Source of the DNA: Phytoseiulus persimilis
Lineage: Eukaryota; Arthropoda; Arachnida; Mesostigmata; Phytoseiidae
Assembly: GCA_037576195.1 (NCBI GenBank)
Contig: CM075101.1
Location: forward strand, 49,600,001 to 49,664,000
DNA: 64,000 bases
Direction: 5' to 3'
Part shown: positions 25,447 through 64,000 of the stretch, piece by piece
How the letters are laid out: the number at the start of each line of letters is the position of its first letter
How positions within the stretch are numbered: position 1 is the stretch's first letter
Position numbers and translations under genes: made by a program
The notes under the pieces: model-generated
The model's database searches: none
Told to the model about the DNA's origin: nothing
Seen by the model: only the letters and a program-made list of their open reading frames with translations

Positions 25447-27706
25447 ATGTAAGTTGACCGGACAGCTGAAATCGAGTGAACGGAGTCGGGAGCAGTTTTT
25501 GATGAATCTGACGTTCGGGCAGTAGTGGGATAGCTCTGGGCCGAGGGAGAATCTAGCCTGTATCTGTGATCCAAAGACAGTCCATGAGACGGGGAAGAGA
25601 AAAAAAATCAGGAAGCCGTCTTGCAGTAGTCTGCTTGTCGGAGAGTGGGTCGATTGTCTGTCCGACCGCGCCGACGATCGAGGCCTCAGAAATTTTCGGT
25701 AGCTACCCCGTTATTAAGGGGGGTAACTGGCTAGACGGTGTTTCTTTGGATGGCGAAAATATTTCATGACTTGTTGACCATGCGCCGAGGAGACGATTTT
25801 TCGTTCCTAGGTTCATGGTTTTTCTTCTATTTCCGTAACTGGTCGCATGTTCATGATCATCAACTTGAGACTGTTTCAACAACGAACGTGCTTTTCTCTC
25901 CAGGAATCCACTCTTGATTTTGGTCTTATTAGCCGGCGTGGCTTCTGCGAGATGGCATTCATTCTGTCCTCTTCGATGCCGATGCAACGATGCCGAGCTC
26001 ACAGTCAACTGTCAGGAGGCTTCACTCGACGTGTTCCCTGCCACGCTGCACCCGATGCTGAAAGAAATCCGCCTGTCAAGGAACAACATCGCGATCATCC
26101 ACTCGGCGATCGGAGTCTATTCGGACCTGGAAGTCGTCGATCTCAGTGCCAACCGCATCTCAGAGCTCGGCGAAGACAGTTTCGCTCTGCATGGACTTCG
26201 AGAAGTCGATCTGAGCTTCAACTTCATCAAGGAGATCAGTGTCAGAACCTTCCGCGGAGCTGAGGTGAGAATCGATAGCGACGAGTTCGAAAACGCCGGC
26301 AAGAGGGCCTCGCAGAGCGGAGCAGCCCGATTCGGGAAAGCGGAACAAAGGAACTAAGAAAGCTTCATTTTCATCCACAGAGTCTCCAAACGCTGATCCT
26401 CAAGAAGAATCTGCTGACCGAACTCCACCCGAACGTGTTCAGCGAACTGAAGAGTCTTGAGGTCCTTGACTTGTCGAACAATCACATCTCAGCCATCAAC
26501 CCTTCGGCGTTCAGCGGACTCGATAGTATAAAGAAGATCGTTCTCCGAGCGAATCATTTCCGTGCGGTTCCCACCGAGTCGTTCATCTACCTCGGACACC
26601 TGAAGAGCTTGGACCTCGGATCCAACGCCCTCTCCATGGTGGATGAGGCAGCTTTCTACCACTTGAGCTCACTCGAGGAGCTGGAGCTCGACAAATGCGG
26701 GATCGCTCAAATCGACCCGGCTGCCTTCACCGGACTCAAAGAAATCAAAACCCTCAATCTCCAATACAACAACATCCAAAGCTTCCCCAAGGCTATCGGC
26801 TCGCTTGAGAAGCTCGAGGAGCTCAACATCGGAGGGAATCTCATCACGCGCCTGAGTACGAAGGATCTGAGGACCTCGTACCGCTTGAAGAAGCTCATAC
26901 TGAGCTATTCCGAGATGTTCAGCAAAATCGACGACGACGCTTTCGCAGCAAATCTCGACCTCGAGGAAGTCGTCATGGAATTCAATATGCAACTCGAGAA
27001 CTTGCCCGTGAACCTGTTCGGTGGGCTCCCAAACCTGAGGCATGTGAGTCTCAAGGGCAACGGAATCCGCCATCTGAACCCGCGTCTTCTGCCGGTCGAA
27101 ACGCTGGACTCCTTCGATGTGACGAAGAACCCCCTCGAATGCAACTGTGATCTCCTCTGGTTGTGGCAGCATCTGCAGCAGGACGTGTTCTACCACAATA
27201 GTTCGATGGTTAGATGCACGGGTCCGAGTCGATTGCAAGGCGAACTGCTGCGGAACCTCGATGAAAGCGATCTTGACTGTGGAGGTGACGCGAAACGAGG
27301 GCTTCTCGTGGGTGCCTTGACACTTTTCAGTGCCGTTCTCATGGTCACCGGAGGCCTCCTGCTCTGGTACCGACGGCGCTCAACGCCTCAACAGGACCCT
27401 GTCAAGGTTCTGAAACAGATGGAAACCGGTGCTTCGGTATATGCACAATACCAGGACAACAAATATCCGTATGTCTTGCAGCCGACGATAATTCAGAGTA
27501 TGCCCACGTCGAATGTGGGCTACGCGGGTCTCACACCGAGAGGTCTGCCCGCGTACATGGTGGGCTTACCGCGAGACACGGTCCGGGTGGATACCTCGAA
27601 CCACATCTACCAAACGCTCAGATCGTCGATGTCGTCGGCGAGCGAATCCGATTCAGCCAAGTACTTCACCCTGGACAGCGATCAGCAGTCGAGTTTGTAC
27701 GTCTAG
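25447..27706 (+). CDS. single-pass leucine-rich-repeat membrane protein
   Basis: The predicted exons are 25447-25448, 25904-26264 and 26381-27706, giving 562 aa. The start codon appears split: AT precedes a consensus donor (GTAAGT) and G is the first base after TTTTCTCTCCAG. The protein opens with a signal peptide (MNPLLILVLLAGVASA). It continues with a cysteine-rich LRR N-cap (CPLRCRC, about residues 22-40) and roughly a dozen 23-24-residue repeats of the LxxLDLSxNxI type. An LRR C-cap (NPLECNCDLLWLW) follows, then one transmembrane helix at about 428-451. The tail is about 110 aa, rich in Tyr, and ends SSLYV, a possible class II PDZ ligand. The architecture matches surface adhesion or guidance LRR proteins such as tartan/capricious or LRRTM types, but no orthologue can be assigned by eye. 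The intron at 26265-26380 keeps phase 0 between repeats. The domain call is certain; the split start is inference. Confidence 0.9.
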
Positions 27707-36998: not shown

Positions 36999-39839
36999 AT
37001 GTGGGGCTTGCCGCTGAGTCCCCTGATCTCACCTATCCAGAAGATGGTTCTCTACGAAAGTAAGGACAAGCTATATCTCATCGGATCGAACAATGCTCAG
37101 AGCTCTTTCCGAATACTACACTTCGATCGCTCTGACCACGAGCTGCTCATTCTGGATGACAAGGTATAGAGTCCACTTCCGGTTTTCGCGTCTCGACCTA
37201 GCTACATGTACAGGGTCAACCGGAGTGCTCGTCAACGTGGGCCCATATCGCAACGTTCCAATCGATTCGATTTCTGCCAGATTCGGTACACGGCGGAGCA
37301 CGTGCAGAAGTTCCTCAAGAAGATAAATCCGGAGGGAAACTGTCAAAAGATATCCGGCTACGGAATAGTCGGTCTTGTGCGTTTTCTCGAAGGGTGAGCC
37401 ACATTGGAGGCCGACCTGAGCTGTCTTCCATCAAGGAATTACAATTCAATACTTGTTCCGAGTTGTGCTTGAGGAGTCGAAGTCTGATAGCTGATGCCTT
37501 CCAGGTATTATATGATCCTGATCACCCGACGAAAGCAGGTGGCAGCGATCGGTCAGCACGCGATCTACAAGATCGAAGAAACTGTGATGAAGTATATACC
37601 TTCAAAAGCGACAACTCATCCCGATGAAGCACGCTACATTAAGATGTTCTCGAACGTTGACCTGCGTTCGAACTTCTACTTCAGCTACAGTTACGACCTC
37701 ACCCATACTCTTCAATTTCATCTGACTCATCTACATCCCGAGGTGGAGAATACTCCGGTGTGGGACGTGTTCGCCTCGAAAGATGAACAACGTCCCGATT
37801 TTGAGCTTCCAAGGCCGCGTTTCGCGGAGAAAACCGACCGAACAGCCAGCATCGAAAAACCCGATTTCGGCAGCGTTCTAGCGGGTAGAGTGAAACCGGA
37901 CGAGAAATTTGTCTGGAACTCCTATCTCTTAGAGGATCTCAAACAATCCGTCGACTCCGACTGGCTGTTGCACATTACTCATGGATTCGTCGGACAGGCC
38001 AACATCTCGTTCTACGGCCGGCCTCTGTACCTGACGCTGATCGCGCGTCGCTCGCGTGAGTACGCAGGACCGCGCTACCAGAAGCGCGGGGCGAATTTCG
38101 AGGGCTACGTGGCTAACGAAGTAGAAAGCGAACAAATACTCCACGACAGCTCCATATCGTCGTTCGAGCACGGCCGGTTTTCGAGCTACGTTCAAATGCG
38201 GGGTTCGGTTCCAGCTCATTGGTCTCAAGAAGTGGTCAAATACGTCCCCAAACCTCAGATTAACATCGACATTTTCGACCCATACTACACCGTGGCCGGT
38301 ATGCACTTCAACCAGGTACTCCGAAGGTACGGCGCTCCTGTGATGATCCTCAACTTGGTCAAAGTGAAAGAGAAGAAGAAACACGAGTGTTTCCTGAGAG
38401 AAGAAATCCAACTCTCGACGAATTACCTCAATCAGTTCCTACCGGACGACTACAAGCTGGAACACATACCTTTCGACATGGCTCGGCAAAACAAAAAGAG
38501 AGATGGCAACGTGATGTCGAAACTAGCGGAAATCAGTAAATACACCATCAAGAAGAACGGAATCTTCCTCACGGCCAAGTGTAATCCGAGGAAGGATCTG
38601 AAAGACATCGGTGGTTTGACTGCTAAGGACGGCAGACGACTCCAGACAGGCGTGACTCGAGTGAACTGCGTCGATTGTCTGGACCGAACGAATACCGCAC
38701 AATTCGCACTCGGTCGATGTGCGCTCGGGTACCAGCTTTACGCTCTCGGGGTGGTATCCGAACCCAAGGTAGATTTTGACACAGATTGTGCTCAGAAACT
38801 CGAAGAGCTCTACGAGAATCACGGTGACATAATTGCCCTCCAGTACGGGGGTTCACAGCTGGTACATCGGGTCAAAACTTATCGGAAAATAGCACCGATT
38901 CGATCACAGTCCAGAGACATATACATGACGCTGTCCAGGTATTACAACAACAATTTCTCTGATCGAGAGAAGCAGGATGCAATGGATGTTTTCCTTGGGG
39001 TCTACCGCTGCGAGGACGGGGCGAAAAATCTCTGGGATCTAGGCACAGATTACTACTTGCACAACTCGGTGCCCGCCGGGAAACTACCCTGCCATAGGAC
39101 GCCGTACTCAATGTGGTGTGACGAAGAGGTTCTGTTGAGTCTCCCGCTGCCCCTGGAAACAACGCACAAGCACCGGGAAATAGCGAATATGTGTCAACTA
39201 CCGGCGCACGACGAGCGAGTGGATGTGTTCCAGGATCAGTACCGGCCCCATGATTTATTGACACTTGAAGAGCTCCATTGTCACAGTCTCAGCATCGAGG
39301 GAAACAAGGACCCGAATCCATTCGAGGTCAGGTTCCGCGGTCGTCAGCAGGACGAAACACCTCAGAATCCTTCGTTGGCTGGAGACAGCACTTCATCGAC
39401 TTTGAAGAACGAAAAAGAAGATGATGATGAGCGAGATGACGAGGAAGACACCGACAACGACGACTACGAAAACTTCATCAGTCAGAAAGTTTTACCCTCG
39501 GAACCGCCTACTGAATTGCCTCCGCCGAAGAAGTCGTTCGCTTTCCAAGAAGCTTTCCGCACCATGAAGGAGACCTATGGTATAGAACTCTCAGACCCTT
39601 CATCGCAGAGCTCTCTGGTTTACGCGAGATACGCAAACATGGACAGTTTTAATGAGAACTTCTCTAGTTGTTTCTCCGAATCGAACAACAGCAGTTTTAA
39701 GATCGATGAGCCGCGGGTCAGTGGCGAGAGTCTCGCGGTCTATGCCCATCATCTGCGGAATCCGTCGAAGCTTTTACTCACGGACGAGAAGAAGCTCGAT
39801 TTTTACAGCAGGCATGTGAGCCTCCGGCGATTCTACTGA
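36999..39839 (+). CDS. FIG4: FIG4, SAC-domain phosphoinositide 5-phosphatase
   Basis: Exons 36999-37163, 37281-37393 and 37505-39839 join in frame to 870 aa (human FIG4 has 907). FIG4 removes the 5-phosphate of PI(3,5)P2 on endolysosomal membranes and works in a complex with the PIKfyve kinase and VAC14. The N-terminus carries the family signature IQKMVLYESKDKLYLIGSNN. The SAC core follows, and the catalytic CX5R motif is intact (CVDCLDR, Cys481-Arg487) with the typical NTAQFALGRCALGYQL after it. Exon 3 holds nearly the whole protein without introns. A strongly acidic stretch (EKEDDDERDDEEDTDNDD) lies near residues 729-750. The start was chosen because it aligns with known FIG4 N-termini; a possible acceptor at 36974 suggests an upstream untranslated exon. 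The gene converges with the mitochondrial IF3 gene; a retrotransposon starts about 140 bp past the stop. Confidence 0.97.
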
Positions 39840-49652: not shown

Positions 49653-51057
49653 CCATAGGGAATGCTAGATCTGCGTCTAGTTTAGACCTTCGCGAGGGTA
49701 AAGAACAAAATCGGTTGAGATTTGGCTGAGCTACGGTATCCAAAAGTTACCGGAAATAAGTATATCCCTTTTTCAAGGTTTTTTGGAGTCACGTCGCAGA
49801 ATTTTGCCATACGAATGGGGGCACAGAGGACAAATTTTTTCCGTCGACTCTTTCGAAGCCTTTTCAGGCTGACATGATTCAGAAATGCCCCTCGGTTCAT
49901 CGAAAGTGTATCTTATTTCTGAGAGGATTGAGTCCATGCTGCTCGGCCCGGAATCTCACACATATTTGGATCTGGGGGATCCGAGAAAATCTGGATCCCT
50001 CGTGCCAGGCCTCCTCGGGCGGGTCGGAAGACGCTGTTGGAAAAAGCTCCTCCAGTGCCACGGGTACGCATGATCAAGCGTCTAGGAGCGGCATGTCGAA
50101 GTCCGGACTACGCTCTGTTCGCATCCGATTTCGACACTCGGAAAAAAAAACTGATTGATAGCTGAATTTCGAAGACTTCGCCGACCAATTTGAATCGCAG
50201 GAAGCGAGTCAGGCTGGTCGAGAGCGGAACACTCCGGAAGATGGAGCGCATAACTCGAGCCATGAAGTCGACACTTGGATGCGAAGCTTTATTGAATAAG
50301 GGGTGCCCACGAGATGCTCTCCTCGATTCGTTTGTACCGAGCACACGTTTCCGGAGGATCAGGAAGCTCTCGATTGAGTCACAATGGGCATTCGAGGCGG
50401 GGGCACAGAGTCGGCGTTTGAGGCATATCGGTATGGTACGCGGAGCTGCCAGAGACGGAAGTATTGATCCTCATGACTCGCGGGACTCACAGGCTTTCAT
50501 ACATTTACAGCCTCAGAGATACAGCGAAGTTCCGAAAACACCGCTCCGCGCGGGCTATCGCAGGGAAATTTAGGAAAGGCGTCTGGGAAAGAGAACCGCT
50601 GGGGAAGAGGCATTGAGGCTGGGGGTTCCAGCACGAGAAAGTCCACAAACCTCCGGCTTGTCACACGAGGAGCTGAAACTTTAGGATGCTGCCCTTCTTA
50701 GAGGAATGTTCTCGCTCAGGTATTGAAACGGAATCAGAGACTTTGATGGTTTCCGTTACGGACTCTCGCTCTTCACAGACCCATTGGTGAGTGACAATCA
50801 GTTTATCGAGAAAATCAACGTCATGTAGCCTATATCATGGTGAAAACCGCGGTCGGCAGAATGGGCGAGGAACACGAGGACAACCTGCATAGTTGTCAAC
50901 TGCGTTCTCCGCCTCGTCGAATAATCAACATGCCTATGCCCAGTCTCTGCTTGCTGATTAGTAACAATGGAACTCCGGCGTGCAGGAGATCGCAGCGGGA
51001 GATATTGAGTTCATTCCGATCCCGCTCCAATAGATCCTACGACGGGCCGGAGGCGTG
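49653..51057. other. upstream region of the peptidase-fold gene
   Basis: The left part is probably unreadable remains of the DDE transposon. Plus-strand frames at 49885-50073 and 50190-50573 have protein-like composition but no known domain or start evidence. The promoter and 5' UTR of the gene starting at 51058 should lie at the right end. Confidence 0.35.
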
Positions 51058-54000
51058 ATGGAAACCGTGGATTACATGAGATACACGGATAGCTACACAA
51101 AGTGGCACACGTCGCGATCCGCGGAAGAAATCGACCTCGGGCTGCAGCCACCCTGTGGGACTGATAGCGCCGTGAACCGTTTACAGCTTCTGAGAAGGCC
51201 GAGAAAACGTGCGCTGCTACTGGTGAGTACACCGAGGCGTTCTCGGAGAAGACGCGATTCGAGAACCATTCTGTTTTCTACTCCCAAAACTTCCAAAAAA
51301 AACGGGGCCAAGTTCAGCTGCTGAACTAGTGGTTCCCTAGGGTTACGTTCCACATCGATCTGATCAACGACCAGTATATTGGAAGCAAGCCGCTGACGGC
51401 AGAGCGAGTGATAAGTGCTAGTCGACAGTGCCGCAAAGCACAACTCTGGATGGTTTCAGTCTCGTTGCGGCTAGCTTCCGGTACAACAAGCGAACCCTCG
51501 CCGGTAGACGCCTACATCAAAACCTCATGCACACCGCCGTCGACATCGAGCTTCTCGGACCCGACTCATGGATTCGCATGAGTGGCCGCAGCTTGAAACT
51601 CGCGATAGCAATAATTGCGAGCACGTCAGATGCGCGCAGAAGTCTCTACGTGAACAACAGCTCCGTTTCACGGATTTTCGCGGGGTCATCATGTCAATTT
51701 GAGCATCGTCGTTGCTAGCACAGCATAGAATTCGCTCGGGTCAGGCACCATGCTGCGCGGGTCGCGAGTCGATCTGCTGAGGAGTCCCGGAATACTTCAC
51801 GTGGATAATGTATTTGGGACCCGACTGACAATATAAGAATGTTCCGACGTTTTCGGAAATGCTGCAGCTCTGGCAAGTTCAGCGGAGTATGAGCCTCCGG
51901 TGCGTTTTCTCACCGACGAGGCTTTATGGAAGCTCCTTTGCTCACTGAGGCGCATGAGCCCCGTGAGTATCCGGTGGCTGACTCGTCTCACTCCAAAATC
52001 AAAACTCCCGCGACGAGAGGACACCGAAGAATCTAAAACGGATGAGTTGGGCCGCAGACATTGGGTTGTTTCGCGTGGAATGTTGAGGAACATAGAGCGA
52101 TGCCGACCATAGAAAAGCGGTCGCTACGGCGAGATTGTGGATTTGGATTCTGAAAAGGATTCGTTAGCAGAGATAAGCTGGGGAGAACGAAAAAAGGGTC
52201 GACCTCAGCAGAAGCCAGTCCCGACCGACCGGGAGAAACGTTTCTTAATGAAGGGCTCTCTGGCCTTCGAACTTCACAGCGGACGCGAGAAACGGCTGAA
52301 GAAGTGAGCTGCCATAAACTCGATTTCTTTCCTGCTCCAGCCGCTTTCCCGAAATAATTTCCTTATCACGGAAAGACGATCGTAGCAGCGATTGCGGACT
52401 CCGGCCCGAGCAGCAAGAAGGTCGAACTCCCTCGTTCCCAACATGTGCAAAAACGCAAAACCAAGTCGACCGGTAGAGTAGAGCTCGGCGAGCTTGTTCA
52501 ACGATGGATTTTTTCCTGAGATCTCCATTTTCTCTAGTCGTCGAGATGTTTCCGATGGGATGGCTCCCCGGCTTGTTCGTGAGGCGCTCAGGCGACGCGC
52601 CCATGGTTGCGCGGGCTCTGCGTCCCGAGTGAATCAAGCAGAGTGAACTCGGTGTTCTCATCTCGGATAACAGTGAGCAGTCCTCGAGTTGGGCACGGAA
52701 CAACCTATGCGGCGGCGGATACGATTCGATCTTTTTTGCTCTTGCGGTACTGGTAACAAAGTTGCAATAATGGCTCCTTCGTCGAGGTTTTTTGTTGCAC
52801 CAAGCTGCACAGAAGTAGTAGAGGAGCTGAACCAGGAATTCCTGTGGCTTCCGAGAGACTGCCCGCGGAGCAGGGAAAGGGCGAAAAATGGATGAACACT
52901 GCTCGAAAGACGCCAACGGAACGATCGAGCCTCGAACTACTGTCAGCTGGGAAGGGGTCACCCGATCACAGCCAGAAGGACTCTTTGATTGTCTCTGCCA
53001 ATCTGTCCAGCCCCATATTCCTCGCCCGTCGAAGCCCTCGTACGCATCGGGAGTATCGCGGGGATACGACCAGAGGTGTGGGCCAAGACGTGAATTAGCA
53101 AGCATTATCTACGTTGATGAAATTCAGATTGCTGCTTCGGAGACTCTTCATGACTGGGGAGATGTGAATATGCTCCGAAATGATTTCAGAGTAGTGACAT
53201 CCGGTGGATATCGGACAGGAGGCTATGAACAGACTGAAATATCTCAGAAGGAATCCTTTCGATCAAGCAGTGGCCGAAATCGACGTTTTTGTGGCAGGAA
53301 GAGTTCCAATGTTGTATTGATCATTCGTCCATCGTTTGAGCAGGAGTTGCTGGGGAGTCGCAAGGAGCCAATATTCCCCTCCCTGAGCTTGGAAAGACGG
53401 AATCGGGCTAATATCGATGATTAGAAATAGTTGAAGCATCCGAGAACGAATAACTATCGTGAGAACATCCCTCGAGGTACGCGTGGAGCGAATTAGCGGA
53501 GAATCCTCCAGTCCAGGTCACTACGCATGAGTTGGACTGACATTGAAAGTCACCGCCAGAAATAAGTGCGTTCCGCCGCGCCATGAGCACTCCAGCCACC
53601 GGAAAACGCACGGCGAATAGATCAGACAGCGAGACACGTTTGATGATCAAGTAAACTTAGTCCATGCCCGGAACCCTCCTCCTTCCGATGCGACATTTTC
53701 CGTTACCTTTCTCCATCCCTCCAATTGAGGTCAACCCTGGCCTGAGGCGTTTTGATGATGAACCGAAGGTTGAGCGGTCTCGATCTGAAAGATCTACTCC
53801 GGCATCTGCCCGAGCGTAGGGGAGCCACTGAAACAGTTAGGAGAGCAAGCGCAAAAGCTGTAGGCTGGAACATGAGCGGTAGGACTCAGCCCGCAGCTTT
53901 CGCTCCGACCTCCCGACTGGGCAGTCTCAATTCACCTTCGCACGCTTCCTGCAGACCATTTTGCCACCTCTTCGGCTGTTTTTCCATCTCATGGGGCGGA

Positions 54001-57000
54001 GTGAATTCAGCATGATGTCGTATCGTCTTTTGTGAGAGACACAGCTCTCCGTCAGCGTCATTGTGATAATGCACGTGGGCATGTGAGAAATTCCGTTTGA
54101 GAACTATTCGGAGAAGACCTCTTCGTGATTAGAGTCTTGAGAGACTGAGACAGATGACCGCTGAGCTTTTCAATCTCAGAGTGAGTGAACAGAGCCGTGG
54201 TGGCCAAGGGATGTTGGTGATGCTTTTCCATGATTTTCTCATTTCGGAACGTGAGCCATGAGAGTCGGGAACTTGGTGCCCCAAGACTCAGCATGACCCG
54301 ACCCCGAGTCATGATTCCCGAGTTGGCCTGGAGGAACGTTCCGCAACCAGTTTTCACAAGTGAATATTCCGATAGTGCTCTTCCAGCGTTTCTCACAATC
54401 AGCCTCGAGTGAGATTCGAAGAGCTTACTTCCAAGATTGACAGACTCCCACTGCGGAACGAATTGCTCAGAGAGCAGGAACTCCTCTTTCAAAACCCAGA
54501 CTGAATGAGCTCTGCGGATTGTTGCGGAAGAGTTGGACCGGAACTTAACGTCAGTCGCGGCTTTCCGGAAAGCTTGGCAGAGTTTCCTGAAGGCTGGCGG
54601 CAACTTTGAGGAACGAGACTAGCTTTAAACGGCCCAACCCGCGGTCCGCTTAAAAGGTGGCCGCAGACGGGCGATGCGAGCTGTGGCGTCGCATGGCGTC
54701 TCAAAAAACGTACTCATTAGAGACCCTGCCCTGTCTGCTAATGGAGTAGAGCATATCCGCATTCTTTGTCATCGTTATGCTCGTTTCGCGAATGCGAAAC
54801 CCTCGGTTTTTGTACGTTGCTAAATGTACTGCTTTTCCCCCCAGCGTCTCTGGGATTTGCAGCGTGGCTATTCGGTAAGAGCAATGAAATGCCTGAGCAG
54901 GAAAATTTTGACGGTGGAAAGCCATCCGACAATCGCAACTCAGGCCACGCGAACTTGACGACTAGTCATCACGCGGAATGAGCTGAGAGACGACTTTCGT
55001 GGTGCATTTGAATATTTTGGAACGAGGCGCCCGGACGCGGATGAGGAGGACTCGTTCCGTCCACGGTCTTCAAGAGTTCATAAGGACTTCGGTAGCGAAA
55101 GATTTGCGCCATTGCGGATATTGAGGAAATCAGCCCTGTCGGATGGAATGGTCAGGGGGCGGGAAAACTGCTTGATCCTTCTCGATCGCGAGGGCTCGAG
55201 TCGCAGTCACTTCCCGGATGCGTCCCGAAGCGACAAATAGAATGAAAAAAATAACAGAATCGAGCGAACACCATCTGACAAATCCGTGACAACACAGAAA
55301 AGTCGGGTTCGAGGCCGATGAAGGCTCGGGGGAATTTTCGGTGGAACACTTTCATTCAGTCATCTAGGCTTGGATTCGAGAATTTATGAAGCATACGAGC
55401 TCTGAAATTCCTTGCATCGATCCAGCACGGGTCGTGAGAGATGAGAACCGGAAGCATCCATCTTATTTTTTCTCTGTGGAACGGACCGACGGCTTCCGGA
55501 ACCGATTTCCAATCGTATTTGGCTCCTCCATGCGCTTCTCCGAATAAAAGGGCATTTCCTGAATGTCGACATCGAATTCGGAAAAAAGTCTCGAGCCACG
55601 AATACGCATCTCGAGGGCCGAGAATTATTCATTAAGACGAGTTCGGCTGCGAATTCGTTCTCGAAGGCATGCTCTTTTCCAGAGCTTAGCAGGATGCGAA
55701 TGAACTCTGTAGCGAATATGTATGTGAACCGGCATCAGCTTCCTTGAGGGAAACTTGCCGTCTTCGGATCTCGCTGCTCGTGTATTACTCACAAGGGGAT
55801 TAGACCCCGCCGTCCGAGCAGTCTTTAGAACAAGGAGTCGAATCCACCGCTGAGCTCCCGTCTTCACTGGCGGGTTGTTCGTAAAACTACTGCTCCCGCT
55901 CGGCTTGTTCGATGAGCACCGCTCACATACGCAGACACAGTGTCGTTCGAGAATCCATCCAGCCATCATCGGAACTTTGCGAGCTGCCCCGCAGTCAGAG
56001 AGTTGCTCGATCGCAGACGATGACGGCGGGAGGGTTCGATAGTTTCGAGCGGCCAGGTTCGGACCACCATCAAAGTTCGGCATCTTGGGAAGTAATGCCC
56101 GGCCGCGCCCCCAACGAACTCGAGCTGTTGCGTATCGGTTACGCCAGATGTGGAGAGTACGACGAGATGGGAAGTACGTTTCGGGGGCGCGACTCCGGCC
56201 ACGCTTCGGAAGAAGGAAGCGTTCCCGCTGAATGCTGCGACCTCGGAACCCCGGCCTCAGAGCCGTGGACGACGGATCATCGCGAGAGCCCAGAGGATGG
56301 AATCTGCCGCTTCGCGAGTCGGAACTCGCCTCAAGAGAACAGATATTCGCAGTTTCCAGTGATAGGAATCCATGCGCCTCGTTCTATTTCCGGCGGCGGG
56401 CTCCAGCGCTAAACGCGAATCGCTTGCTCTCTTCTCAACCTTTTCCCTCCATGCTTCAGCGGCTCGTGGTTGACTGATTCACTTTCGAGTAGCGGTGGTG
56501 CGGTGCCATGTTTGAGTGGGAGAATCGCTCGATGCAGGAGCCCTTCTCTTGAAGATAACGGCACAAGGACAATACCTGACCGAGTCCTTTGTCATCCGAA
56601 ACTTTTGAATGGGGTGGAAAATCCTTCTCATTGAGAATTAGGGCGGAAACACAAAACAAAGCTCCTTGAGGGGTGGAACACGTCCTCATTAAACCGGCTA
56701 CCGTCATGCTGTTTGACCTCTGTCAAGAGGAGGCGATCAGAGTCCGAGTCAGCCAGTTCGAAGGGCGGCTCAGGTTGTCCGGAAAACCTCCGCTGTCCGG
56801 ACGACGACGCGGAAGATATCAGCCATCCATTCCGAGAATGGATCCGGGCTGAAATTTCGTGGTCCTACCAGAGCCGCGCTGAGTGCGCCGTAAGGTGAAC
56901 ACGACGAGGAAGGCCCGTTGGCAAGGATCGGGTTCAAGAGCTCTGTCGGATCGAGAGTCGTTCCTCAGATAAACTCTCGTCGGAGAGGAGGAGGCCCGAA

Positions 57001-60000
57001 GTATTTTCAGGCATGAATATTCCAGGAGCCGATGGAGTTCATGCGGCCTTCGTTCACCCATAAAATACATTGTACGTATAATATAATAAGATTCTCGTGT
57101 TTTCAGTTCATCTGGCTGATAGCCTCCGGGTTCTGCATCGGAGTCTTGGTTGGATTCTCCGCACGCCAGCTGCTCCAACATAACGTTAGCCTTGTTTTGC
57201 CTCGAGAAACGCCCAAACCAAATTGCGAGCCATTTCATCGAAAGGAAAAGTTTGTCGAGACTTTTACAGCACTCACCTCATCGGTCAAGCGGGAGAACCT
57301 GAACCAATGGCTATGGTGAGGATTTCTATTTCCGATTGCGTGTTAGATCAGTCTCGGCGGCCGGACTCTCTGAACGACTCTGGTCTCATTGCCGATCTGA
57401 CGCTGGGGATGACAATGACCAGGTGGCCAGCAAACCAGTTGGCAAGCCAAGCTTCTCATGTCGCACCCTCGCAGACGATGGTTCAGGCTTAGTTGCATCC
57501 CGATTGATTATCCTCTCAGTCCAGATGGCCCAGTGTGAATCTGGGCGGGAGTATTCTCCGCAAATGCCAGAGGGGAGGACTCCAAGCTCCCGAATTTCAC
57601 AAGGGTCCTGTTCTGGATCAACCCGATAGCCATTCCGCAGTAAATGACTGGCCTGATCGTTTCTTCGTCGATGAAAGAATTCCGGCTCGCATCGATCCGC
57701 TCTGGTCGGGAACCCTAACGACGGAAGAATCCGGACCGAATTCCAGGTCCCTGACGCGTGACTTCCACGTCGGAGGCTCGCATAAAGGACGAGAGCTGTC
57801 GGAAAAAATCCGTGACAGATGGACAAGTCTACCGTATGTGAGGATCGAGAAATATAGGCCGTTGCTCTCTTACCCTGACACGGAACGAACGAATGAGGTT
57901 CGCTTGACGCAGGGCTCGAAGGTGCTCTATCAAGCGACGATGAGCCCGAAAGAAACAACTTTTGGTAAGCGGGGGATGTTGCGGGAAGTTCTTCGCGCAG
58001 AGCGGATCATTCACCGAATAATTAGATCCGACCCGCGGAATCCGAAGAGAAAGCAATGAGCGGTGGAAGGGCTCGGACTCTAAATCGCAAGTCATTCACA
58101 ACTGACCTGAATCGCTTCACCCTGGCATTCCTCCTGCCACTCACTTCTGTTTCCTCGAATTACTCTCGCGGGCTTTTCATATAAAAAGATCCCCGTTCCA
58201 CTCGGAGACACACGCTCGTGCGGGCACCTGGCGAAACGCACGCGCACTGAAACGAACACGCTGCGAGAAGCGGAGCCATACGCTCCAAAAAACCTTCCCG
58301 TTCCGCTATGCTTTTAGCCCCTCTTCGAGAGAGCATGAGAATACACGGAATTACGTTCCGGGGAATAGACGGAGAAATGAATGGAAAGGTTGAATAACGG
58401 AGGATGGAACGGAGGAAAAGTTTAGATGGATGGCGTCTCGTGGGGATGTTGCAAAGACAGCCACTTTGTTTAACTCGCGCGCTTTCCCGCCCGGAATCTC
58501 TAGAAACTCATCCCTATCTGGCCTATTCCTCACCTGGAAAAGTTCGAGGAAAACCCGTGTACGTCAATTTCGGACGTGAAGAAGATTTTGACGCTCTGAG
58601 AGTTCGCGGCGTCACTCTGAACGGAACTATTGCGATCATGCGCTTGGGGAAAGCTCAAACTCTGACGAAAATCCGACGAGCTGAAAAGAACGGGATGAAA
58701 GGTAAAAATTGCGTAACCGCTTCACCGAGGATTCCTTTCTCTCACGAGTCCCGTTCGATTATCCCGATGAACAAAGCTCAGCGCGGCTCGCTAATACCCC
58801 GCTCCCAGCGGAGCTCTTCCAAGCCCGTTGAAGAACTGCTCCAACCAACCTGGAGTGCTTTCTAAGCCAGCGTCGCATCTCTTGCACATTGGGAGCTCGG
58901 ATTATCACAGCGGGCTCATTCCTCTCTTGGCTTCAGGGGTCGTTTTGTACCGAGATCCGTTGGACGCAGAGTCGTTTGAAAGTGATTTTGCGGGACCGTC
59001 CATGCCTTTCGACGCTACACCCCGCGCCACGTTGAAATCATATCCTGGGGATCCGGCCACGCCATATTTGCCAGCCGTCGGAGATGTGAATCGAATTTCC
59101 CGGAGTGACATCCGCTTGCCCAGCATTCCTGTTCAGCCCATCAGTGCTATTGATGCTCAACAGCTATTGAAGTGAGTCCCAACGTCGGTAAGGACTCTGC
59201 TGCTCTGCCTCTTTCCCAGCTTACGTCTCCATCTATCGTATCGGGATACTTCCTACCTCTGCCCTGAAAGTGGATCCTCTGGTTTTGATTTATAACGCTG
59301 GTGATTGAGGTGTCTCCGGTCGAGTTTGGTCCTCTCCTTCGAAAATTTGGGATTAAATTGCGATCTGTTTCCTATTTTCAAGAGACTTGGCTGGTTCCAA
59401 AGCACCAATGGAGTGGGTCGGGAAGCTGAACGTTTCCTATTCAACGGGTCCAGGATACAAAGACGCGGCTGAAGTGTGAGTATGCGTTCCCCATAGCCCA
59501 AAACGGAAGCATATCTCGTTTTGTCTTTCTCGAGTTCGGAGATCGCCGAGGCGTCGGTATCTTCGCGGGTCCCACCGACAAACTAGTGCGCATTTCCCGT
59601 TTCACGATTCCAACTCGTTACACCATCGAGTGTTGATTCATCGAATCCTCCTGACGGAAACGAATGTCCGTCTTCCCTTGGTGTATTTGATGAGTAGCGC
59701 CACAAGCAAACTCTGCGGGTACCATTGTTGTGTCCAAGTTCGGGGAATGTTAGATGCAGCACGACAGGAAGTCGACTGATTCTTGGTTTGGACGTCCACG
59801 ACAGCCTCTCACTCTGATCGCGGAGCACTCCGGCAGGGGATCACCCATGAGACGTCCCTCTCTGGATTTCATCGTTCTGTGGAGAATGCTGGCGTGAGCC
59901 GCGGAGTGGCCAGTGAGCTGAGTATGGGATGTAGCTAAGGCTGTGAATTTGTCACGGTGTTTTCAGCGAAAATTTACGGCGAAGTCACGGCGTTTTTCTT

Positions 60001-63000
60001 GGCGGATCACGGATTACGTGAACAGACTTTCCTTGCCTCCTGGTGTTGCAAGCTGTACATGGAGAGGTCGCTCTCTTTGATGTAGCGACGCTCTGCCGAA
60101 TATTGACAAGCAGGCTCAAACAGATGAGCGCGATTTTTGTAAGCGCCGGGAAGCGTTTTGAGGCTTTCTCGTCGAACGTGATGGGGTGAAACGATGGAGC
60201 CAGCTCCTCCACGTATTCGTAGAGGCCAAGTTTCCCCGTGGCCGCTCAAAACGTCAAGCCATTCAATCAGCACATCCGAGTCGTCTTTGTGTAGGTTTGC
60301 TCGCGCATCACAACTCATAGAAAAAGTTAGTCATCAAATGCGGCGCGAACTTCGTTCACTGACTCAGCCATGATTTGATAGCCCCGGGTCGATACGGAGC
60401 GAGAACAACATGGTTGAACCAACTATTCCATCCTGTTGGAACTGGAGCAGGATGGAACCTCTGCAGCTTGCCCAAAGGACGAGTCAGGGGCTCTGCTGTT
60501 AGGACACACCGCCCAACTGAGGTCATTGATGGCTATCCGGCGGATTGTTCGACCACGGAAAGGAGCGAACCGACTCCAACGGACCGCTCCGAGCCAAATA
60601 GCCTGAGCGAAGTCGAGTTTCCGCCTGAGATGAGGAAAAAAGCACGAGCATGAGGGAAAAATGAGGCATCGGAGATCGCGGCACCAGCGAAATTCACGGT
60701 ATCTCGGGAAAATCTTGGATTTTGTCGCGGCCGTGAATCCCGTGATGGACTCACAGCCCTGGAAATAACTCAGCTGTTGTTCCAGCGAGGTGCAGCTGAC
60801 CTCTTTCAACCTATTGAGAGATATGGAAATTCACAACGTACTTGGAACTATACCCGGATCGCTAGAGCCAGGTGAATCAGAGAAACAGTCGCTGCTCGCA
60901 GAGACTAGACGTGAATGAGTGAATTTTACATCCGAAAACTCTTAGGGTGCGCTCTGAACGAAGCAATAACCCGGAACGATCTTTCAGATCATTACGTGAT
61001 CATTGGCAGCCACCACGACTCATGGACTCGCGGAGCTGCTGATCCCGCGTCGGGCTTGGCGATCCTCATGGAGGTCGGTGGGTCGGTCATTTGGTCGCCC
61101 TGCCGTCTTGGAGTCCCATCCCATTGATTCACGATTCAAGCTACTCTCTCCCCTCTCTCTTTTTTTCTCTGAAACTTTATCAGACTCCTTGACGATCCAA
61201 CTAAGCCAAGCTCCCTCCTCGGCTCTCGGGTGGGCAGGAGGATCAGAACGAGTCCTCATTGAGCAGTTCCTAGTTCGGAGTAAAAATTCGCCCCTTGAGC
61301 TCGCCAGGAAGATGTTTCCCACTGCTGAGTGTTCTGTCCATGTCAGCTGAAAACTCGGAGAGTATTTACTCAAGCTGAATATCCTCAATCACAACAGGTA
61401 GTGCGGGCGTTCTCGGACCTCTATCACAACACGCCTTGGCGACCCAAGCGAACGCTGCTTTTCGTAGCTTGGGACGCGAGCCACTTCGGATCGGTGGGTA
61501 GTACCGAGTTTTTGGATCAGTACTCTGCGGAACTAAGCCACACGATTGCCTATCTTTCGCTTGACAGAGCAGTCACAGGTCAGTGGCCACCATCTCATCA
61601 GAGGAACGGCGGAAAAATCCACCTCCGACAGAACGTGCACACATTCCCCTCTTGCAGGAACTCGAAGCCTGCAGGTCTCGGGGAGTCCTCTACTCCGGCA
61701 GGCTCTGAAGAGGGCGGCGAAACAGATTCCAGCGATCGAGTCGCGAATTGGAGAAAGCCAACAGCCTTTTGAGAGTCTGTACGATTCGTGGCTGAGCGGC
61801 AGACCCGCGTTACTTCTGACGGGTCGCGGATCCGTCCCCGAGCTGCTCCCGCCGTCGGGGGAGACAGACATTATTCCCTTCTTCCAGCTGCTCGGGATTC
61901 CTGTCGCGCAACTCCAGTTCGTGAACCGGGGCTCGTTCTACGATTACCCGGTGGTCGACACCGCTTACGACACTTACGACCTCGTCGCGAACCACGTCGA
62001 CGTCGGACAACACGCGATGTACACTCTGACCCAACTGGTGTTGGGTACAGCCCTCGACTTGGCGGACAGCGATGTCCTTCCCTTCAAGGTGCGTTGTCTG
62101 AGTGGGTTAACGCTCTCCGCTTCCGCAAAGGGAACGGAGTCGGCGAATTCACATCGGAGGCACAAGCGTTAGGATTCCTCTGTCAATCGGGATGACGTCT
62201 TTTCAGGCCGTCGACTATGCAAATCAAATTTCCGCCGATTTCGCGATGTTCCAGCGCGAGCACAGAGAATTTTTCAGAGCCAACGGTGTTCCAATGGAGC
62301 CGCTGACGAAGTCGGTGAAGGCTTTCCGACTCGCATCTCTGGCTTTCCAAGAAGAGGCGTTGCACGACGCAGTGTCTACACATAACAACGCATCGCTGAA
62401 TCGTAAGTTCTGCTTCGGAGACGTTCGCGAGACACTTTCGGGAAACAACAAAGCGGAAACCACCGTGCCCTCATGATAATGAAGACTCAGATCGCACCGG
62501 TGACTCGACGCGGCGTCGATGGCAGACGGGAGTGCAGGGCACCGTTCCAATCGGCCGACGCGGGCAGCGCTTCGGAGTTTCAGATTTCCCATCGCATGCC
62601 ACAGTGGAGGACACCCGCGATCCCGACAAGTCCGTCGAGCGACCCCAGACGGTCGGGGAGGTTATTGTATTCCCGACTCACTTGCAATATTCGATTTCAG
62701 ACTGTGGGATCTTTAAAATTCAGGACCACAACGACCGTTTGCTCAGAATCGAGAAGAGCTTCCTCTTCCCCGAAGGTTATCCATCCGCTCAGCCACATCT
62801 GAGGTATGCCCGCTCTCGAACAGAACAGCAGCTTCCTCAGGTCAAGAAGTTTTCACTAAGCTCGGACTCCAACCGCTCCGCAGGCACATAGTGTACGGGA
62901 TCGACGAGGACAACGTGGACCGGAGTTTGCTATTCCCCCATCTGACGAAAACGATCCGAGAATTTCGGAGAAAACCCAAATCGTTGGCTCTGCATTCGGT

Positions 63001-63091
63001 CCGCGAACACCTAAGTATGGCTCTCAACGCTCTTCGAAAAGCCACTGACCTACTCAACCGCAGTTTGCTGACTGGCAAATCCACTCTATGA
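51058..63091 (+). CDS. glutamate carboxypeptidase II-like pseudoenzyme (M28B / transferrin-receptor family)
   Basis: Thirteen exons give 802 aa: 51058-51222, 57107-57315, 57747-57964, 58504-58701, 58937-59171, 59383-59475, 60786-60871, 60988-61073, 61398-61578, 61658-62088, 62207-62402, 62701-62803, 62884-63091. It is a type II membrane protein. A cytoplasmic tail ends in LLRRPRKR, followed by one helix (about 52-76) and the three extracellular domains of GCPII: a protease-like fold in two parts, a protease-associated insert (LVYVN-like [20 protein letters not shown]), and the helical dimerisation domain. Zinc-site positions: His410 (GSHHDSW) and Asp420 are kept, as is Asp486. The catalytic Glu-Glu pair is Ser458-His459 (WDASHFG), and the last zinc His is Asp591 ([11 protein letters not shown]). 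Peptidase activity is therefore unlikely, as in transferrin receptor. All phases close; the weakest site is the donor at 61073 (GAG|GTCGGT). Exon 1 rests on phase, charge-before-helix and strong splice sites. Confidence 0.9.
51223..57106 (+). other. 5.9-kb first intron of the peptidase-fold gene
   Basis: Bounded by CTG|GTGAGT and TTTTCAG|TTC. No transposon or known gene is recognisable inside. Several open frames lie in it: 52245-53105 minus (286 codons), 52888-53424 plus, 54058-54603 minus, and a compact 84-codon minus frame at 52274-52528. All lack recognisable domains, and most shadow one another. Frames at 56020-56173 and 56713-56889 were considered as alternative N-terminal exons. Confidence 0.6.
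52274..52528 (-). CDS. small intronic ORF, unknown
   Basis: An 84-codon frame opens with ATG in a strong context (GAAAATGG), directly after an in-frame stop. It encodes a peptide of even composition that starts [20 protein letters not shown] and ends FFSRFSRPL. It lies antisense within the large first intron. No family is recognised; a longer minus-strand frame overlaps it. It may be a nested small gene or chance. Confidence 0.2.
   Translation of the reverse strand: MEISGKNPSLNKLAELYSTGRLGFAFLHMLGTREFDLLAARAGVRNRCYDRLSVIRKLFRESGWSRKEIEFMAAHFFSRFSRPL
59476..60785 (+). other. 1.3-kb intron of the peptidase-fold gene
   Basis: Bounded by GAAGT|GTGAGT and GTTGTTCCAG|CGAGG. Nothing recognisable lies inside. 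Confidence 0.8.
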
Positions 63092-63337
63092 GGACGTGGA
63101 AGAGATTTCGTGGAGTGAAGTGGTCGTTTGCGGGCTCTGCCGCTCTCTCGAGCGATCCCGAAAGTTCTCCGGTCGCTCGAATCTCAACTTGGCTGCAAAC
63201 GGACAGAGAGTTCGTTCCTTCTCCCTGAGTTTACCCGGAACTTGTTTCTCCGGGATGTTCCCCTGTGAATTTGTTGACTACATGTACAGCTGAAGATAAT
63301 GTTCAAGTGTGAGAGGAATTCGCGTCAAGATTGGAGC

Positions 63338-63343
63338 AATAAA
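63338..63343 (+). promoter_or_regulatory. polyadenylation signal AATAAA of the peptidase-fold gene
   Basis: The first canonical hexamer after the stop at 63091, 247 bp downstream. Confidence 0.75.
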
Positions 63344-64000
63344 ATCACTGAAGAGTTTCACGATGTCTCGCGTTCGCGAGTGAAGTTTTGTGAGTGCGGC
63401 GTCAGGAATAAAGAGTCATGAGCATCTCCTCAGTTTCCGTGTGCGACGAAGCCCGGGAGTATTTTGGATCCTCATGAGGACACTCTCGCGCACATGACCG
63501 AGCACAATCCCTCCTCAGTATGGGCGGCTTTCCTGCTCGGGCTATAGTCCTGGGCGACAGATGTTTCCTCCAAAAGCAGTCCTTCTCTATTGTTATTCTG
63601 ATCCCGTCTGGTCGCTGGCCTCGAAGCGGACCTTGCGGCCGTGTTAATCGATTCGCTAAGGCTTCCTCCGATCGGGAGTTTCCAGCTTCGTACAATACGA
63701 GCAAATTCCAGAACAGGTATCTCGAACCATCGGAGAGTCGGAACCAGATCTTCCGCCTGAGCACGATTATTGTGACATGATCCACGCGTGGCCAATGGCG
63801 TGCCCAGAGCGGTTGGGGCATGAGGGACATGCCCCCGCCCCAAAACTCTCCGAAATTATCGGGGAGGGTGGATGAAATTCTACTCTGATGGACGGAAGAG
63901 CTCCTCAGTGTTATCAGGAAAATACCCACAGGCTCGAAAACCATGTTGACTGCGTCATGAAAACCTCGCGACGATGATGATGATCATCATCACATCCTCG
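63344..64000. other. intergenic to window end
   Basis: No gene seen. At 63793 a sequence beginning CAATGGCGTGCCCAGAG is followed by GGGGCATG and a C-rich run. It resembles the end of the hAT element at 48578 (CAGTAGCGTAGC, then GATGCCCGGGGCGG). It may be one end of a further element that continues past the window; with one end only this cannot be confirmed. A GATGAT/ATCATC palindromic simple repeat lies near 63975-63993. Confidence 0.3.

Follow-up and report, generated by a model that had tools for sequence, protein, structure and literature searches.

A putative M28B pseudopeptidase with an altered zinc site and a paralog that keeps the catalytic base

INTRODUCTION

The transferrin receptor (TfR) is the standard textbook example of how a peptidase fold can become a receptor. 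In GCPII, a peptidase of the same family (M28B), His377 and Asp453 bind one zinc ion, Glu425 and His553 bind the other, and Asp387 bridges the two. NAALADL2 is a further animal protein that we take to be a pseudo-M28B protein. The mRNA of vertebrate TfR1 carries an iron-responsive element (IRE).

The five zinc ligands of GCPII are named in the available text of PMC10865363. According to excerpts of PMC9768917, GCPII catalysis requires Glu424, and inactive controls of trematode proteins were made by mutating the corresponding residues; section 18 of PMC10794815 likewise describes the catalytic importance of Glu424. In excerpts of a sponge paper (PMC7034838) and a clam paper (PMC12896564), NAALAD2 is put forward as a substitute for the transferrin receptor, which means that the idea of invertebrate M28B proteins as receptors is already in print.

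Here, we describe gene A, a predicted M28B gene in which the catalytic base is replaced, together with two paralogs, genes B and C, on the same contig.

RESULTS

Gene A lies on the + strand of the window, which is the whole 64,000-nucleotide stretch of DNA analyzed and to which the positions below refer. Twelve exons, spliced by hand from 57107 to 63091, have GT-AG borders and give a single open frame of 747 codons plus a stop codon. Adding a provisional exon 1 of 55 codons brings the product to ~802 residues. An earlier note on this DNA had described a reading frame preserved across 13 exons; our splicing bears this out, with exon 1 remaining provisional. For that exon, 50001-57060 was scanned for stretches in phase 0 that run from an ATG to a donor of the form GT[AG]AG, which returned four candidates. 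The one chosen reproduces the numbering of the earlier note and ends in basic residues that precede the membrane segment, and hence is not independent of that note. No homologous counterpart of exon 1 was found upstream of genes B or C. The features of gene A are as follows.

51058-51222, + strand: provisional exon 1, cytoplasmic tail (55 aa, ending [10 protein letters not shown], donor GTGAGT; one of the four scan candidates)
57107-57315, + strand: exon 2, transmembrane segment and stalk (hand splicing, alignment)
57747-57964, + strand: exon 3, start of the ectodomain (hand splicing, phmmer alignment)
58504-58701, + strand: exon 4, protease-associated (PA) region (splicing, phmmer, Pfam)
58937-59171, + strand: exon 5, PA region and beyond (splicing, phmmer, Pfam)
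59383-59475, + strand: exon 6 (splicing, phmmer)
60786-60871, + strand: exon 7 (splicing, phmmer)
60988-61073, + strand: exon 8, with the kept ligands His410 (61011-61013) and Asp420 (61041-61043) (splicing, phmmer, MAFFT)
61398-61578, + strand: exon 9, with Ser458 (61479-61481), His459 (61482-61484), and the kept Asp486 (61563-61565) (splicing, phmmer, MAFFT)
61658-62088, + strand: exon 10, with Asp591 (61957-61959) at the His553 position (splicing, phmmer, MAFFT)
62207-62402, + strand: exon 11, dimerization domain (splicing, Pfam)
62701-62803, + strand: exon 12, dimerization domain (splicing, Pfam)
62884-63091, + strand: exon 13, end of the dimerization domain and stop codon (hand splicing)

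The interval 60988-62088 covers just the three site-bearing exons (7-9 of the 12, or 8-10 of the 13). By eye, the basic provisional tail is followed by a hydrophobic stretch, [19 protein letters not shown], which fits a type II protein with a single transmembrane segment. Two Tyr-x-x-aromatic strings (YMRY and YTKW) occur in the provisional tail at 51058-51222; they are reminiscent of YTRF, the uptake signal of TfR1.

The product of gene A aligns with GCPII-like peptidases over nearly its whole length. A phmmer search of 177,635 distinct PDB sequences found 37 matches with E no higher than 0.001. Of the 747 residues, 56-736 align with GCPIII at 336 bits (E 3.4e-99), and 55-734 align with GCPII at about 315 bits. 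NAALADL1 scores 312 bits and TfR1 about 180 bits. Pfam recognizes the M28 domain (PF04389; 67.4 bits, cut-off 21.3) and the TFR_dimer domain (PF04253; 51 bits, cut-off 27.1). The PA domain (PF02225) reaches 22.1 bits, just below its cut-off of 23.9; the region does align with GCPII. An NCBIfam search gave no match above any cut-off. These results uphold the GCPII fold assigned by the earlier note, and gene A is predicted to encode a type II membrane protein of the GCPII/transferrin-receptor family (M28B).

Two other genes were seen in the window. At 37491-39839 (+ strand), one long open frame matches the SacI homology domain (Syja_N) at 242.7 bits; it seems to encode the greater part of a phosphoinositide phosphatase and, by eye, resembles FIG4. 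A leucine-rich-repeat protein with five LRR_8 stretches is encoded at 26279-27706 (+ strand), with a hydrophobic stretch near its C terminus by eye.

Three of the five zinc ligands of GCPII are identical in A: His377, Asp387, and Asp453 correspond to His410, Asp420, and Asp486. The base Glu424 is Ser458, Glu425 is His459, and His553 is Asp591. A separate MAFFT alignment agrees with phmmer on all of these. The earlier note had listed the same six residues, with the base, one Glu, and one His replaced, and had called the zinc center "dismantled." The residues are reproduced here; that description does not hold. The half comprising His377, Asp387, and Asp453 is complete, and the other half, now His/Asp, still consists of ligand-type residues. 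The aligned residues thus indicate a site that is altered rather than dismantled, with an acid and an imidazole exchanged in one half. Because one half-site is intact and acid and His are swapped in the other, A may still be able to bind metal. The clear sign against catalysis is the loss of the base.

Nine residues with roles in the GCPII pocket were checked, and all are replaced in A (Phe209, Arg210, Asn257, Arg463, Arg534, Arg536, Tyr552, Lys699, and Tyr700). In the glutamate pocket, Arg210, Asn257, Tyr552, Lys699, and Tyr700 have become Thr, Thr, Val, Val, and Asp, respectively.

We compared these changes with bacterial relatives, obtained by scanning prokaryote genomes with the pattern WDAEEFG; the best 80 of 169 confirmed loci were all aligned. 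His377, Asp387, Asp453, Tyr552, His553, and Arg210 are kept in 80 of these 80, while Glu424 and Glu425 were preselected by the pattern and so are not counted. Since every one of the best 80 of 169 has His553, its loss in A is unusual. The loss of Asn257 and Lys699 is ordinary, as neither occurs in any of the same 80 sequences (46 Ser and 34 Thr at the former position, 80 Gly at the latter). Worm and trematode M28B proteins also lack Lys699 in the available parts of PMC10794815 and PMC9768917. A TfR-like string, "LD.AV.G," was considered as a shared novelty and rejected, as similar strings occur in the bacterial relatives.

The earlier note had allowed for an alternative exon restoring Glu-Glu, and none was seen in the window. 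Outside the 12 exons, tblastn of A and B gave only weak matches, none exon-like by eye (lowest listed E 0.83; the best E, 0.024, belongs to none of them). A six-frame motif scan returned WDASHFG at 61470 and one unrelated antisense match.

The assembly searched comprises 180,977,233 bases in 127 contigs (GC 0.50-0.53). Gene B, located at C1:37.427-37.438 Mb (L028, L029), shares 57.0% identity with A across 728 positions. Its site retains His377, Asp387, Glu424, Glu425, and Asp453, with Arg at the His553 position; Tyr552 and Arg210 are lost as well, as in A. Part of the loss in A (His553, Tyr552, and Arg210) is, as aligned, common to B. Most exon borders are shared between A and B in the hand-made models, and both have TFR_dimer domains. 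In the hand model of B, the intron after exon 5 (C1:37430944-37431036) has an apparent GC donor, GCAAGT.

Gene C (C1:7.962-7.967 Mb; L033) is very divergent and was recognized via PF04253. It lacks all five ligands, with Gly at His377, Ser at Asp387 and Asp453, His at Glu425, and no His553, one exon being unplaced and the alignment near 553 uncertain. Its base position holds Glu; Glu424 is thus kept in both B and C.

No intact or fourth M28B gene was found in the assembly with PF04389, A, PF04253, part of GCPIII, or a motif search. PF04389 matched four places, namely L001, L002, a nicastrin gene (L003), and gene B, and missed A and C. L001 and L002 were considered as GCPII candidates and judged by eye to belong to other M28 families. 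The 23 matches obtained with A as query are confined to A itself, B, and a single exon of C; PF04253 finds B, C, and, below its cut-off, A (E 0.85); and all nine matches to part of human GCPIII lie within A, B, or C. The motif W-[D/E/G]-AEE-[F/Y]-G occurs in three places: gene B, L116, and L118. The latter two were set aside by eye, as a retroelement-like open reading frame and a place without M28 features. Because the PF04389 search missed A and C, the absence of an intact GCPII from the assembly is likely rather than proven. The nicastrin-like gene (L003 796-1956) is a 387-aa open frame in one piece, whereas the M28B genes have many small exons.

Over 728 codons, A and B differ with pN 0.293, pS 0.754, and dN 0.37, with synonymous sites saturated. 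We therefore find purifying selection averaged over A and B. These figures argue against decay; as averages over both copies, they cannot date the loss in A. Among five segments with boundaries of our own, dN is lowest in the M28 core (0.275), followed by the PA part (0.304), the region around 553 (0.421), the membrane segment and stalk (0.444), and the dimer domain, where it is highest (0.527).

Relative-rate tests of A against B with three outgroups are not significant (A-only/B-only changes 51/41, 52/38, and 49/47; χ2 1.09, 2.18, and 0.04). Two trees were built, the first from 8 sequences and the second adding 12 of the 80 bacterial ones. The branch of A is ~2 times that of B in each (0.556 versus 0.285 and 0.554 versus 0.264, respectively). 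Because of this longer branch, and because A has more unique changes in all three tests, some relaxation in A is possible. A and B form a clade with UFBoot 100 in both trees. They are only weakly placed relative to TfR1 (UFBoot 47 and 63), and the branches are long. NAALADL2, represented by an approximate sequence, is the partner of C at UFBoot 63 and 66.

No IRE family was found at E up to 5 in window positions 52000-64000 or in L028, L029, and L033. A loose IRE-loop pattern has 35 matches in the window versus 27 expected.

A bantam-like microRNA hairpin lies at L119 1493-1576 (- strand). In a laxer search of 261 bases it scores 53.7 bits over the whole model, below the Rfam gathering score of 61, with one mismatch. 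Bantam is a mark of protostomes, and the hairpin suggests that this animal is one. A search for iab-4 with up to one mismatch did not find it.

DISCUSSION

We consider gene A to be a conserved M28B pseudopeptidase that would serve as a dimeric binding protein or receptor, with a probability of roughly two in three. Its product would be a membrane protein of type II that probably forms homodimers and has an ectodomain of GCPII architecture. Because a serine stands in for the general base and the glutamate-recognition pocket is lost, it should be unable to run the GCPII reaction. It probably still holds one metal ion in the His410-Asp420-Asp486 half-site, and it most likely works by binding a partner or ligand rather than by cleavage. 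The earlier note had proposed a pseudopeptidase with a receptor, adhesion, or transport role. The substituted site and intact frame make the first part the likeliest reading; the role is something that we infer.

Some observations count against a pseudopeptidase. Three of the five ligands persist and the replacements at the remaining two are of ligand type, which is unexpected in a site without constraint, and the M28 core is the best conserved A-B segment, which is also compatible with surviving activity. The same features favor a rewired metalloenzyme, in which His459 and Asp591, having swapped places, would hold a second metal, with Asp420 bridging and another residue acting as base. The presence of Glu424 in B and C likewise counts against a pseudopeptidase. 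From composition, His plus an acid at the two replaced positions has a chance of ~0.007, and any two of H/D/E/C ~0.02, both values being post hoc. We nonetheless regard such an enzyme as unlikely: a candidate base is absent, the checked pocket residues are replaced, and C also has His at 425 though it lacks all five ligands, so His there need not mean metal. Excerpts of PMC9768917 report that trematode M28B proteins with a full site gave no substrate.

A broader scenario, which we regard as unlikely, is that enzymatic GCPII has been abandoned entirely in this animal. Its three M28B genes would then be graded pseudopeptidases: B, with one ligand lost; A, with the base lost and His and acid exchanged; and C, with five lost. 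A and B would be receptors, possibly the iron or metal-carrier receptor of their lineage.

A might instead be a regulatory partner that forms mixed dimers with B and modulates it. Their 57% identity, mostly common exon borders (in hand-made models), and TFR_dimer domains would suit this, as would the Glu-Glu of B, in which the base and four of the five ligands remain. However, B has lost His553, Tyr552, and Arg210 and may thus be inactive, and the dimer domain is the most divergent A-B segment; we find a regulatory partnership improbable. Decay toward a pseudogene, to which the catalytic loss and longer branch of A could point, is very improbable, given 747 codons without stop or frameshift, standard splice sites, a low pN with saturated pS averaged over both copies, and nonsignificant relative-rate tests.

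As a pseudopeptidase and putative receptor, A together with B looks like a separate case of a peptidase becoming a receptor, probably in a protostome. With the base present in one paralog and absent from the other, the sequence in which residues were lost is open to study. An acarine lineage, a guess prompted by the GC content and the compact genome, would give A and B a bearing on iron uptake as well. Ticks apparently lack transferrin receptors according to excerpts of one tick paper (PMC8999750), and a "transferrin receptor, putative" was raised in fed ticks according to excerpts of a transcriptome paper (PMC7654163).

Among known systems, A is closest to human GCPIII (NAALAD2; 34.0% identity over 661 positions), with which it shares an M28 domain, a dimer domain, and a PA-like region. 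It is 32.1% identical to human GCPII (PSMA, FOLH1) over 661 positions, in a nearly whole-length ectodomain alignment. Unlike both, A has the base, two of five ligands, and the checked pocket residues replaced. TfR1 belongs to the same family, has a lost site, and is a non-enzymatic receptor according to an excerpt of PMC10794815. It is 23.9% identical to A over 356 positions. The residues of human TfR1 at positions 377, 387, 424, 425, 453, and 553 are Gln, Lys, Gly, Asp, Asp, and Gly, and A shares only Asp453 with it. Given this differing pattern and an affinity to TfR1 of UFBoot 47 and 63, the earlier note's "same route" as TfR is an analogy only. NAALADL2 tends to group with gene C, not with A, which forms its own clade with B. 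Invertebrate M28B proteins with altered specificity pockets, like A, are described in excerpts on C. elegans GCP2.1-2.3 (PMC10794815) and on trematodes (PMC9768917); in the same excerpts, unlike in A, the catalytic Glu and zinc ligands are conserved. A literature search, with most subscription journals outside its reach, found no report of a substituted site like that of A in an invertebrate M28B protein. Pseudo-M28B proteins are a kind already known from TfR and, presumably, NAALADL2, and A is a new variant of that kind.
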